From: Salinibacter pepae
GTDB lineage: Bacteria > Bacteroidota > Rhodothermia > Rhodothermales > Salinibacteraceae
Direction: 5' to 3'
Assembly: GCF_947077775.1 (NCBI RefSeq)
Contig: NZ_CAMTTE010000001.1
Coordinates: 372,001 to 436,000, forward strand
DNA length: 64,000 bases
In this document: piece after piece, positions 17,005 to 20,690 of the stretch
How positions within the stretch are numbered: the first letter of the stretch is position 1
How the letters are laid out: every line of letters starts with the position of its first letter
Notes under the pieces: model-generated
What the model was told of the DNA's origin: nothing
The model's input: only the letters and a program-made list of their open reading frames with translations
Databases searched by the model: none
Translations under genes and position numbers: made by a program

Positions 17005-18681
17005 ATGCGCAACGACGAGGTTGCCCAGATTTTACAGGAAACGGCCGACCTGCTCGAACTCACGGGCGGAAACCCGCACCGGGCCCGGGCCTTCGCCCGG
17101 GCGGCCCGGTCCCTGCAGGACCTCGACGCCCCCGCCGCCGACCAGCTCCGTGAGGACACCCTCGTCGAGGTGTCGGGCATTGGGGACGGCATGGCGGATC
17201 ACATCGGCGACATTGTTCACGGGGGCTCGTTCGCCCTTCGGGACGAGTTGCTCAGTGCCGTCCCGCCCGGCCTCCTGGATGTCTTGCAGGTGAACGGGCT
17301 CGGGACGAAACGAACCCGCCGCCTCTGGACGGAGCTCGACATTGCCTCGCTCGACGAGCTGGAGCACGCCGCGGAGGCCGACCGGATCACCGCCCTCGAC
17401 GGCTTCGGCGCCAAGACGCAGCAGAACATTCTGGAGAACGTGCGCCAGCTCCGGCGCTACGAAGCACAGTGGCGCCTCGCCGACGCCTGGGCGGCAGCCT
17501 ATTCCTTTCTCCAGTCGCTCCGGGGCCTCGACGCGGTCGACCGCGCCGTGCCCGCCGGGGCCCTCCGGCGCCACACCGAAACGATGGAGCGGGCCGACGT
17601 TCTCGTGTCTACGGCCACCGTCCCCTCAGTCGTGGACTGGCTCGACACGCACCTCGACGCCCCGACCCGAGAGGACTCGGTGGTGACGGGCCGCCTCGAC
17701 GAGGGACTGCCGGTCGCGGTCCACCTCACGTCGCCGGACCGGTTCGGAACGGCCTGGTGGCGCACCACCGGCACCGCCGCCCACTGCACTGCGGTGACCG
17801 AACACGCCGACTCCCCCGCCGATCACGCTGACGAAGAGGCCCTCTACCGGGCCGCCGGATTGGCGGTCGTGCCGCCGGCCCTCCGCGAAGGGCAAGGGGA
17901 GGTGCAGGCGGCGGCCGACGATGCGCTGCCGGAGCTGCTCACGACGGAGGACCTCGACGGCTGCCTCCACAACCACTCCACCTACAGCGACGGGGCGCAC
18001 ACCCTGCGCGAGATGGCCCTAGCGGCGCGGGACCGCGGCTATTCGTACTTCGGCATCTGCGACCACAGCCAGTCGCTCCGCATTGCCGACGGCCTCTCGC
18101 CCGAGGAGGTCCGCGATCAACGCGACGCGGTGGACCGGCTCAACGACGAGCATGCGGACGACGAGCCCCCCTTCCGGATTTTCCACGGCATTGAGAGCGA
18201 CATTCTCCGCGACGGATCCCTCGACTACGAGCAGGAGGTCCTCGAGACCTTCGATTTCGTGGTGGGGAGTGTCCACACCGGCTTTAGCATGACGGAGGAG
18301 GAAGCCACCGAGCGCCTCGTCCGCGCCGTCGAAACCCCGCACACCCGCATCCTCGGCCACCCGACGGGCCGCCTCCTCCTGGGCCGGGAGGGGTACCCGA
18401 TCGACCACGAACGTGTGATTGCGGCGTGCGCCGAGCACGACGTGGCGTTGGAGTTGAACGCCAACCCGCACCGGCTCGACCTCGACTGGCGATGGGTTCG
18501 TCACGCCACCGACCAGGGGGTCCTGATCTCGATCAACCCGGACGCCCACGCAACCGCGGAACTCGACTACGTGAAGTGGGGCGTGGCCGTGGGCCGGAAG
18601 GGCTGGCTCACGCCCGACCAGTGCCTCAACGCGAAGTCCCTGGATGCCTTCGTGCAGTGGCTCGATGACACCCGGCCGTAG
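17005..18681 (+). CDS. polX: PolX-family protein: degenerate X-family polymerase domain plus PHP phosphoesterase domain
   Basis: Protein of 558 aa with the bacterial PolX layout: N-terminal HhH domain (about 1-150, including VSGIGDGMADHIGDI and LDGFGAKTQQNIL), X-family polymerase domain (150-310) and C-terminal PHP domain (315-558). The PHP metal ligands look complete: LHNHSTYSDG, ICDHSQ, GIESDI, GSVHTGF, LGHPTGR and NPDAHAT. In the polymerase domain the first and third catalytic Asp appear lost: RADVLV has Arg196 where Asp is expected, and VAVHLTS has His240. The likely surviving activity is a PHP exonuclease or phosphoesterase in DNA repair. The ATG at 17005 gives the family-like start. Confidence 0.88.
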   Translation: MRNDEVAQILQETADLLELTGGNPHRARAFARAARSLQDLDAPAADQLREDTLVEVSGIGDGMADHIGDIVHGGSFALRDELLSAVPPGLLDVLQVNGLGTKRTRRLWTELDIASLDELEHAAEADRITALDGFGAKTQQNILENVRQLRRYEAQWRLADAWAAAYSFLQSLRGLDAVDRAVPAGALRRHTETMERADVLVSTATVPSVVDWLDTHLDAPTREDSVVTGRLDEGLPVAVHLTSPDRFGTAWWRTTGTAAHCTAVTEHADSPADHADEEALYRAAGLAVVPPALREGQGEVQAAADDALPELLTTEDLDGCLHNHSTYSDGAHTLREMALAARDRGYSYFGICDHSQSLRIADGLSPEEVRDQRDAVDRLNDEHADDEPPFRIFHGIESDILRDGSLDYEQEVLETFDFVVGSVHTGFSMTEEEATERLVRAVETPHTRILGHPTGRLLLGREGYPIDHERVIAACAEHDVALELNANPHRLDLDWRWVRHATDQGVLISINPDAHATAELDYVKWGVAVGRKGWLTPDQCLNAKSLDAFVQWLDDTRP

Positions 18682-18719: not shown

Positions 18720-20690
18720 GTGTCTCGACGCCTCTACCTTGGGCTCGCGGGGGGGCTCATCGCTGTCGGCGGCGCCGTCCTGTGGTGGGCCCTCAGCGGC
18801 CCGGTCTCGCCCCCACCGGCCGCGCATCCGATCGCGGACCTCCGGGATACCACGACGATCGGCTGGACGGATCGCCATACCGTGACGATCGAAGCCCCCC
18901 ACGCGACCGACGCGCTCACGGCATTGGGCTACGTGCACGGCATGAAGCGGGCCTGGACGCTGACGGTGTGGCATCACACGGCCCTTGGCACGCTCTCCAC
19001 CGCGTTCGGCGACGGCCTCGTGCCCGTCGATCGACATGCGCGTCGGCTCGGCTTCGCGCACCACGCGCGCCGGGCCTACGAGCGGCTCGGCACCGCAACC
19101 CGGGAGCGCCTTCAGGCCTACGCCCGCGGCCTGAACGCGGCCCTCCGGTCTACCCGCGTGCAGCAGCGGGAGCCCTTTCTGCACTTCGACCGCGTCCCGA
19201 AGCGCTGGGCCCCCTGGCACTCGTTGGCCCTCGCACGGCTGGTGGCCTGGACGGGCACCGCCCCGACGGCCGCCCCCACGGCTGCCCCCGATTCCGGCCT
19301 GGCCGACTTTCGGGCCGCCGACCGTCGGCTCCGACGCTGGCTCCGCCTGCATGGGCGGTCGCGCAGCGTGGCGTGGGCCGCCGGTGCACCGGGCGACACG
19401 ACCCGGACCGTTCTCTTCGCCAAGCACGTGCTGGGGGCCACGGCCGATCCGGTGGTGCAGGAGGTCGTCATTCGGCGCCCCGATGCCGCCCCCATGGTCG
19501 CGGCCTCCCTCCCGGGCGCTCCGCTCTTCCCGACCGGCCGCACGAACGGGCGTCGATGGACCTATCTGCTCCACAGCGACGCCACACTCGTCCCGATCGA
19601 GGTTGACTCCGCAGCGGCCCGCTCCCGCCACGAGCGCATCGCGCCGGCCCGGGGCGGCGAGCAGCTGGTTGAGATTCAGCGGCACGGGGCGCGGGTCCGC
19701 GTGGGCCCCATTTCCCCCGACTCGGCCTGGGTGTTGGAGTGGCCCGGCCTCCGCGCCCGCACGGATCTGCCGCGGTGGCTCGCCACGGCCAACCTGGACG
19801 CGCGGCACGACGCCGCCGCGCCGGACTTCCATCTCGTGGAGGGCGAGGGGCTCCAGGTGGACTCGACGGGAGCGTGGTCGGTCCAGGGCCAACCGCCCGT
19901 GGTCGACCGCGGGCCCGCCTCCATCCTCGTCGGTCGGTCCGGCTGGGCCGCCCACCAGGCCGACGTGCTCCGGGCGCAGGCCCGGTCCGGTCCCGCTGCT
20001 CCGGCCCAGTGGAGCGCGAGCGACTCGAGCACCTGGGCGGCCGCCCTCCTTCCGACCCTCGTGCCCGACCTGGCGTCGCTCAACGCCCCCGACTCCACGA
20101 CCATCGACGCCCGCTCCTACCTGCGCAACTGGGACGCCGTCTACGATCCGGCCAGCATCGGGGCGGTCGTCTTTGCGGAGTGGATGCGCGCCTACCGACG
20201 CGAGATTGGCCGTCGCCCAACCCCAACCGATTCGGTCTTCTTTGCGGGGCCGCGCCGGCGCCGAACATTTCGCGCGGCCGTCGACTCGCTCACGCGTCGC
20301 TACGGCACCGACGTGCGACAGTGGCGGTGGGAGCGCGCTGCCTCCGAGCGCCGCTTCTTTCCCGTATGGGCGGTCGACAGTCTCGTCGCGGAGGACGTGT
20401 CCGCACTGAGCAGCACCCGATTCGCGCCGCTGGACCGTCCCGGCCGGGGCCACGCCTCCACCCTTTCCGGGGGGCCGTCTCGGATCAACCCGCTTCCCCT
20501 CGGGCCCGCCCCAACGCACTGGGACGGGTGGATGCAGGGCCCCCGCGGCGGCCTCACGGTGCGGCGCCTGCGGTTCGAGCCCTCACGGTTCTTTGCCCGC
20601 TCCCTCCTGTCCCGTGACCGTCCCCCGCCCGTCTCGGTCCAGCGGGCCCCGGTCAAGAACACGACCCGTCTCGTGCCCCCATCCCCGTAG
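18720..20690 (+). CDS. Penicillin acylase-like (Ntn hydrolase) protein
   Basis: Protein of 656 aa with an uncleaved-looking N-terminal hydrophobic segment (residues 5-25). ALGYVHGMKRAW and the LQAYARGLNA region match the alpha part of penicillin acylase/acyl-homoserine lactone acylases. The expected autocatalytic Ser, which becomes the N-terminus of the beta chain, is Ser216 in SRSVAWAAG (family form SNAWAVSG). LPGAPLFPTGRTNGRRW and LRNWDAVYDPASIG support the fold. Sequence around the Ser is unusual, so substrate and activity are uncertain; a fatty or aromatic amide is most likely. The GTG start is 38 bp after polX. Confidence 0.75.
   Translation: MSRRLYLGLAGGLIAVGGAVLWWALSGPVSPPPAAHPIADLRDTTTIGWTDRHTVTIEAPHATDALTALGYVHGMKRAWTLTVWHHTALGTLSTAFGDGLVPVDRHARRLGFAHHARRAYERLGTATRERLQAYARGLNAALRSTRVQQREPFLHFDRVPKRWAPWHSLALARLVAWTGTAPTAAPTAAPDSGLADFRAADRRLRRWLRLHGRSRSVAWAAGAPGDTTRTVLFAKHVLGATADPVVQEVVIRRPDAAPMVAASLPGAPLFPTGRTNGRRWTYLLHSDATLVPIEVDSAAARSRHERIAPARGGEQLVEIQRHGARVRVGPISPDSAWVLEWPGLRARTDLPRWLATANLDARHDAAAPDFHLVEGEGLQVDSTGAWSVQGQPPVVDRGPASILVGRSGWAAHQADVLRAQARSGPAAPAQWSASDSSTWAAALLPTLVPDLASLNAPDSTTIDARSYLRNWDAVYDPASIGAVVFAEWMRAYRREIGRRPTPTDSVFFAGPRRRRTFRAAVDSLTRRYGTDVRQWRWERAASERRFFPVWAVDSLVAEDVSALSSTRFAPLDRPGRGHASTLSGGPSRINPLPLGPAPTHWDGWMQGPRGGLTVRRLRFEPSRFFARSLLSRDRPPPVSVQRAPVKNTTRLVPPSP

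Follow-up and report, generated by a model that had tools for sequence, protein, structure and literature searches.

The polX locus and its product

The window, a 64,000-nucleotide stretch of a Salinibacter pepae contig, carries a gene for a noncanonical family X DNA polymerase (PolX), whose features are listed in Table 1. PolX of T. thermophilus is co-linear with residues 1–555 of the Salinibacter protein (E 5.9e-93) and PolX of D. radiodurans matches it with E 8e-81. The nearest named relative is PolX of S. altiplanensis (85% identity), which is identical to PolX of one same-genus genome. The protein is the single PolX of a 3.63-Mb genome that is 99.97% complete. A Pfam scan (E ≤ 0.001) matched the HHH_8, HHH_5 and PHP families, and the Pfam palm and thumb families gave no match at E 0.001. 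The NCBIfam PolX equivalog model NF006375 scores 422.2 bits, below its curated cut-off of 426, and the NCBIfam model NF005928, related to the PolX-like PHP proteins that have no polymerase region, matches the PHP part. An AlphaFold2 model of the protein (36 sequences) reached a mean pLDDT of 92.5 and a pTM of 0.80. Among solved folds, Thermus PolX 3au6_A comes closest to it (Z 46.2; 542 residues aligned at an rmsd of 4.3), followed by D. radiodurans 2w9m_B (Z 40.9) with an rmsd of 15.3, which indicates that the domains are placed differently in the model and in the D. radiodurans structure.

The adjacency of polX and the penicillin-amidase family gene recurs in 10/10 related loci (L002–L011), in which PolX identity runs from 85% down to 51%, and the two genes may form a two-gene unit. 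Upstream of polX lie exbB and two exbD genes in divergent orientation, an arrangement seen in 9/10 related loci; the tenth, L009, starts too near polX to show it. An acetyl-CoA synthetase gene is also among the neighbours. No operon with repair genes was found among these neighbours.

Table 1 Features of the polX locus (positions in the window)
Feature	Position	Strand	Remarks
Noncanonical PolX gene	17005..18681	+	558 aa; ATG in register with the start of Thermus PolX
N-terminal 8 kDa domain (about residues 1–80)	17005..17244	+	Pfam HHH_8, PF14716, E 1.1e-18
Thumb with helix-hairpin-helix motifs (about residues 81–175)	17245..17529	+	Pfam HHH_5, PF14520, E 1.2e-10
Degenerate palm (about residues 176–244)	17530..17736	+	From alignment and column drift; no Pfam palm match
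R196 at first catalytic Asp position	17590..17592	+	
D198, second catalytic Asp, retained	17596..17598	+	
A238 at third catalytic Asp position	17716..17718	+	Previously placed at H240, 17722–17724
Shortened fingers (about residues 245–287)	17737..17865	+	43 aa (58 in Thermus)
PHP nuclease domain (about residues 316–555)	17950..18669	+	All nine ligands
PHP ligand codon starts	17968, 17974, 18064, 18193, 18274, 18358, 18451, 18541, 18547	+	
Penicillin-amidase family gene	18720..20690	+	38 bp downstream of polX, same strand

Two of three catalytic aspartates are replaced

The polymerase signature motif of the Salinibacter protein reads GALRRHTETMERAD. We determined the catalytic triad from a MAFFT alignment of 138 PolX sequences (the Salinibacter protein, Thermus, Deinococcus and 135 others); partially matching loci (five), duplicates (seven) and two short loci (L057, L064) had been removed. 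The Thermus aspartates D198, D200 and D243, numbered by the chain letters of the structure, align to R196, D198 and A238. The original prediction that two of the three polymerase aspartates are missing is thus borne out in its main part, with the first and third gone and the second kept. Its assignment of Arg196 to the first position agrees with the column of Thermus D198; its assignment of His240 to the third does not hold, the true site being Ala238, two residues earlier. Column 240 carries Arg in 30/32 canonical sequences and His in 37/106 altered ones and is therefore not a metal site; the alignment rules out H240 in this function, the column being mostly Arg in canonical PolX. The Salinibacter protein thus does not have the full set of three acidic palm metal ligands that marks a canonical family X polymerase.

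The changes extend beyond the triad. Ala186 replaces the Ser of the GSxRR motif, which is present in 32/32 canonical sequences, and the TGS motif of the fingers reads TGT at residues 255–257. By our own boundaries, the fingers fall short of the 58–67 aa found in the 32 canonical sequences; the palm counts 70 aa compared with 73 in Thermus and 73–81 in the canonical set, with boundaries that differ from those of PMC9226535. Gly185 and Arg189 of GSxRR are each kept in 104/106 altered sequences, and this retention suggests a structural role for the two residues.

The triad R196/D198/A238 (RDA) is also found in two same-genus genomes with protein identities of 98% and 85%, so it is not a sequencing accident; two more genomes of the genus (67% identity) have the triads QDR and RDR. 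R196 and H240 had been proposed for a check of conservation across the group, and neither is conserved: the 106 altered sequences contain 63 different triads. Because the triad varies this widely, R196 and H240 probably carry no special function, and a special role for R196 was ruled out on the same count. In counts that ignore kinship, an acid (Asp or Glu) occupies triad site 2 in 83/106 altered sequences, and a basic residue is found at site 1 or 3 in 76/106. The pattern, which might reflect charge compensation, looks as if a positive side chain stood in for the metal.

The PHP domain is kept while the palm drifts

All nine PHP ligands (H322, H324, H354, E397, H424, H452, E483, D513 and H515) are found in the Salinibacter protein, as the original prediction of an intact PHP domain had stated. 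The corresponding HHHEHHEDH motif occurs in 137/138 aligned PolX and, with 21 further loci, in 158/159, the sole exception being Thermus, whose first ligand position is occupied by Q. A survey from 2026 reports that, among PolX in general, conservation is stronger at the PHP sites than at the polymerase sites.

Mean column entropies in the 106 altered sequences amount to 2.79 bits for the palm, 2.68 for the fingers and 1.26 for the PHP domain; the values for the 32 canonical sequences are 1.39, 1.33 and 1.20 bits. Since the altered and canonical sets differ in breadth, the ratio within each set is the meaningful measure, and the palm/PHP ratio is 2.2 in the altered set compared with 1.2 in the canonical one. 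Pairwise dN/dS values against S. altiplanensis are 0.34 for the palm and 0.07 for the PHP domain, and the relative with 98% identity gives 0.10 and 0.07 for these domains, within a set of 12 pairs, several of which are saturated in dS and one of which, the very close L005–L006, shows no palm change. The palm is relaxed, though not free of constraint, and the PHP domain is tightly kept.

The protein belongs to a published noncanonical class

Noncanonical (altered) PolX are a published class, described in PMC9226535, of which the Deinococcus members are reported there to be polymerase-dead and to act as strong Mn2+-dependent exonucleases through the PHP site. The traits given for the class are (i) replacement of one to three triad acids, (ii) changed dNTP-binding residues, (iii) a deletion in the fingers and (iv) the PHP motif HHHEHHEDH; a deletion in the palm is described for many, not all, members. 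The main cluster of the class in that work names Bacteroidetes, Deinococcus-Thermus and Rhodothermaeota and includes a Rhodothermaeota protein. With the triad R196/D198/A238, Ala186 and TGT, shortened fingers and HHHEHHEDH, the Salinibacter protein shows these traits, and it is a new member of the published class; the functional guess itself is not new.

In a tree computed from the 8 kDa, thumb and PHP columns for 108/138 rows (the 30 dropped rows being mostly close relatives), the Salinibacter protein (L001) falls among the altered rows, in line with the grouping with altered Bacteroidetes PolX given for the class. With palm and fingers columns left out, the altered/canonical label needs three changes in all on this tree, which was built by a quick method, with the root not inferred and with long, unsure branches for Thermus and Deinococcus. 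It agrees with the one main altered cluster of PMC9226535.

Deinococcus radiodurans PolX (2w9m) shares with the Salinibacter protein the domain order, an altered triad, shortened fingers and the intact HHHEHHEDH motif; the triad letters are AEE in D. radiodurans and RDA in Salinibacter. D. radiodurans is reported to possess the ExoIII-family enzyme DrXth, whereas the Salinibacter genome has no Ku, Xth or Nfo match. Thermus thermophilus PolX (3au2/3au6) has the full-length fold in common with the Salinibacter protein, as given by the Z score to 3au6_A. Compared with canonical PolX, for which PHP-borne AP endonuclease and 3′-5′ exonuclease activities are known from T. thermophilus and B. subtilis, the Salinibacter protein is without two catalytic Asp and the Ser of GSxRR, and its fingers are 15 aa shorter. 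Proteins of the M. tuberculosis Rv3856c type, which consist of PHP and no polymerase region and have been proposed elsewhere as AP endonuclease analogues, likewise have a PolX-type PHP domain; unlike these, the Salinibacter protein retains the polymerase core fold.

PolX was matched in 131/296 genomes of the phylum, or 126 after removal of five weak rows (G109, G132, G196, G224, G288). All aligned PolX of the order, within Rhodothermia, have altered triads, save a second copy in G301. This genome (83% complete, 4% contamination) holds an altered GDR copy (L163) and a canonical DDD copy (L237); G323 has a second PolX with 40% identity. Among other families of the same class, 20 sampled PolX are canonical DDD (L099–L118), and a further two, both of family f12, have altered triads. 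Stand-alone proteins of the 8 kDa domain and thumb HhH motifs occur in 10/60 order genomes (L149, L150 and eight more), with open frames of about 210–460 aa and 26–39% identity, and all ten genomes also carry PolX.

Distribution of Ku, Xth and Nfo relative to PolX

Ku had no Pfam match in the 99.97%-complete Salinibacter genome, with a profile that was positive in 1/14 control genomes, and the ATP-dependent ligase domain, positive in 6/14 controls, had none in this genome either. At E 0.001, the same genome gave no match to ExoIII (Xth, TIGR00633; positive in 9/14 controls) or EndoIV (Nfo, TIGR00587; positive in 10/14). Nfo was absent by the TIGR00587 profile from all 60 order genomes searched, and Xth exceeded the cut-off in 23/60. 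Ku is present in 8/60 order genomes, namely in 7/16 without PolX and in 1/44 with PolX (Fisher p 2e-4, not kinship-corrected), the single Ku in a PolX-bearing genome being a partial match over 92 positions. Family f51 has no PolX and has Ku in all six sampled genomes (G296, G300, G306, G312, G316, G320), a pattern that runs opposite to the published positive link between PolX and non-homologous end joining (NHEJ).

Xth shows a similar split in the order, with 15/16 PolX-less genomes carrying it versus 8/44 with PolX (Fisher p 1.2e-7, not kinship-corrected; the partial PolX matches G304, G322 and G324 scored as PolX present). Across the phylum, neither Xth nor Nfo exceeds the cut-off in 22/296 genomes, and PolX is found in 20 of these 22 compared with 106/274 others (Fisher p 1.4e-6), in a count that excluded 18 matches below the Xth cut-off and 2 below that of Nfo. 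The 20 PolX-bearing genomes span ten families; their PolX are altered in 17 cases and canonical in three (G004, G078, G097). Six of the 20 contain a weak sub-cut-off match to the Xth profile, which probably stems from further proteins of the nuclease superfamily to which Xth belongs.

The association can be divided by rank. Within the order, PolX is present in 13/13 genomes without Xth and Nfo versus 6/17 (p 3e-4), and in the phylum outside the class in 5/7 versus 58/215 (Fisher p 0.02). The class outside the order gives no discrimination, because all 44 genomes there have PolX; Xth is kept in 35 of them. With Xth in 35/44 PolX genomes of the rest of the class and 8/44 of the order, the two enzymes are frequently found together. 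In the phylum set, G284 and G288 are without Xth, Nfo or full PolX; in the order, G306 lacks both PolX and Xth.

When mapped on an rpoB tree of the 56/60 order genomes that had an rpoB match, the distribution of PolX takes 5 changes and that of Xth 7. Well-supported branches provide 3–4 independent pairs, in about 2 of which the other trait is opposite; it hardly ever goes the same way, the rest show no difference, and the sign test gives a median p of 0.5. Kinship weakens the complementarity of PolX and Xth, and the independent events are too few for significance. We found no earlier report of a PolX–Xth/Nfo complementarity in the literature searched, which leaves subscription papers mostly outside, so that one may exist elsewhere; the terms xth, nfo and exonuclease III have 0 occurrences in PMC9226535 and in PMC12926913.

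Proposed function and competing explanations

The best overall explanation, which we hold to be probable, is a noncanonical PolX with a dead polymerase site and a PHP-based nuclease acting in base excision repair. That the protein is a polymerase-dead PHP nuclease is very likely in its own right: two triad acids and dNTP-site residues are lost, the fingers are shortened, the PHP ligands are intact, and purifying selection is concentrated on the PHP domain in a genome without Xth, Nfo or Ku matches. The original prediction, loss of polymerization and function as a PHP nuclease, agrees with the triad, the dNTP site, the fingers, the palm drift and the PHP ligands, with the activity itself predicted; its PHP exonuclease reading also fits the biochemistry reported for the same class in Deinococcus (PMC9226535). 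Because D198 is kept, some residual metal binding may persist.

We infer the activities from relatives that have been characterized; the role in the cell is our proposal. The PHP metal site would be the working part, as a Mn2+-dependent 3′-5′ exonuclease, AP endonuclease and 3′-end cleaner, and the 8 kDa and HhH domains would place PolX on DNA. B. subtilis and Thermus PolX are reported to have Mn2+-dependent AP endonuclease activity in their PHP domains. In the cell, PolX would serve base excision repair instead of ExoIII and EndoIV, and not NHEJ.

A role in NHEJ, in which a polymerase-dead 3′-5′ exonuclease trims ends for Ku/LigD end joining, has been proposed for the class from co-occurrence, as NHEJ genes are reported to be enriched in genomes with altered PolX (PMC9226535). 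For this genome we consider it very unlikely and rejected it: there is no match to the Pfam Ku model and none to an ATP-dependent ligase domain, and Ku in the order follows the opposite pattern (1/44 PolX genomes, the 92-position partial match, vs 7/16 without PolX). It is slightly harder still to credit that PolX still polymerizes, by pairing D198 with other residues or by arranging the metals differently, as could be argued from the retention of D198, the Asp or Glu at its position in 83/106 altered sequences and the activity once reported for the D. radiodurans AEE enzyme, as quoted in PMC9226535. Carefully purified Deinococcus enzymes are described in the same paper as being without polymerase activity, and in the Salinibacter protein site 1 is basic, site 3 is Ala, and the dNTP site and fingers are altered. 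The drifting palm would also be expected of a decaying pseudogene, an explanation that we regard as next to impossible, given that the reading frame is still open and none of the nine PHP ligands is missing, that dN/dS against two same-genus relatives lies well below 1 in every domain, and that synteny is kept in related loci; purifying selection contradicts it.

The question of whether a PHP nuclease of this kind is central to the cell is much closer. It is quite conceivable, though somewhat short of an even chance, that PolX plays a minor, redundant part as a 3′-5′ exonuclease or 3′-end cleaner, AP sites in Salinibacter being dealt with by AP lyases, TatD or nucleotide excision and its co-occurrence with missing Xth being due to shared ancestry. 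The few independent events on the rpoB tree are in keeping with redundancy, as is the AP endonuclease activity reported for TatD in bacteria; the PHP domain, on the other hand, is the most constrained part of PolX, and the direction of the association repeats outside the order and class (5/7 vs 58/215, Fisher p 0.02). That the polymerase-dead PHP nuclease is the main AP endonuclease or 3′-end cleaner of the Salinibacter cell is, in our assessment, evenly balanced. We put forward tentatively, and with some doubt, that in Salinibacter and its relatives polymerase-dead PolX replaced ExoIII/EndoIV in this main role, its retention permitting the loss of Xth.

As a protein, the Salinibacter PolX is one more member of a published class, and it is the role that would matter. 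Published work ties the class to Ku/LigD end joining, yet neither Ku nor either of the two standard AP endonuclease families has a match in this genome. Should the AP endonuclease of this cell be the PHP domain of a dead polymerase, this would answer why such PolX are kept, and would explain why the PHP site was preserved while the polymerase was discarded in a genome without NHEJ genes; a polymerase would have ceded its function to a proofreading-type domain of its own. Salinibacter would then offer a natural system in which the PHP repair role is unmasked by ExoIII or EndoIV. In D. radiodurans, a mutant in both polX and xth is reported to show greater sensitivity to H2O2, which supports an overlap of PolX and Xth in vivo.
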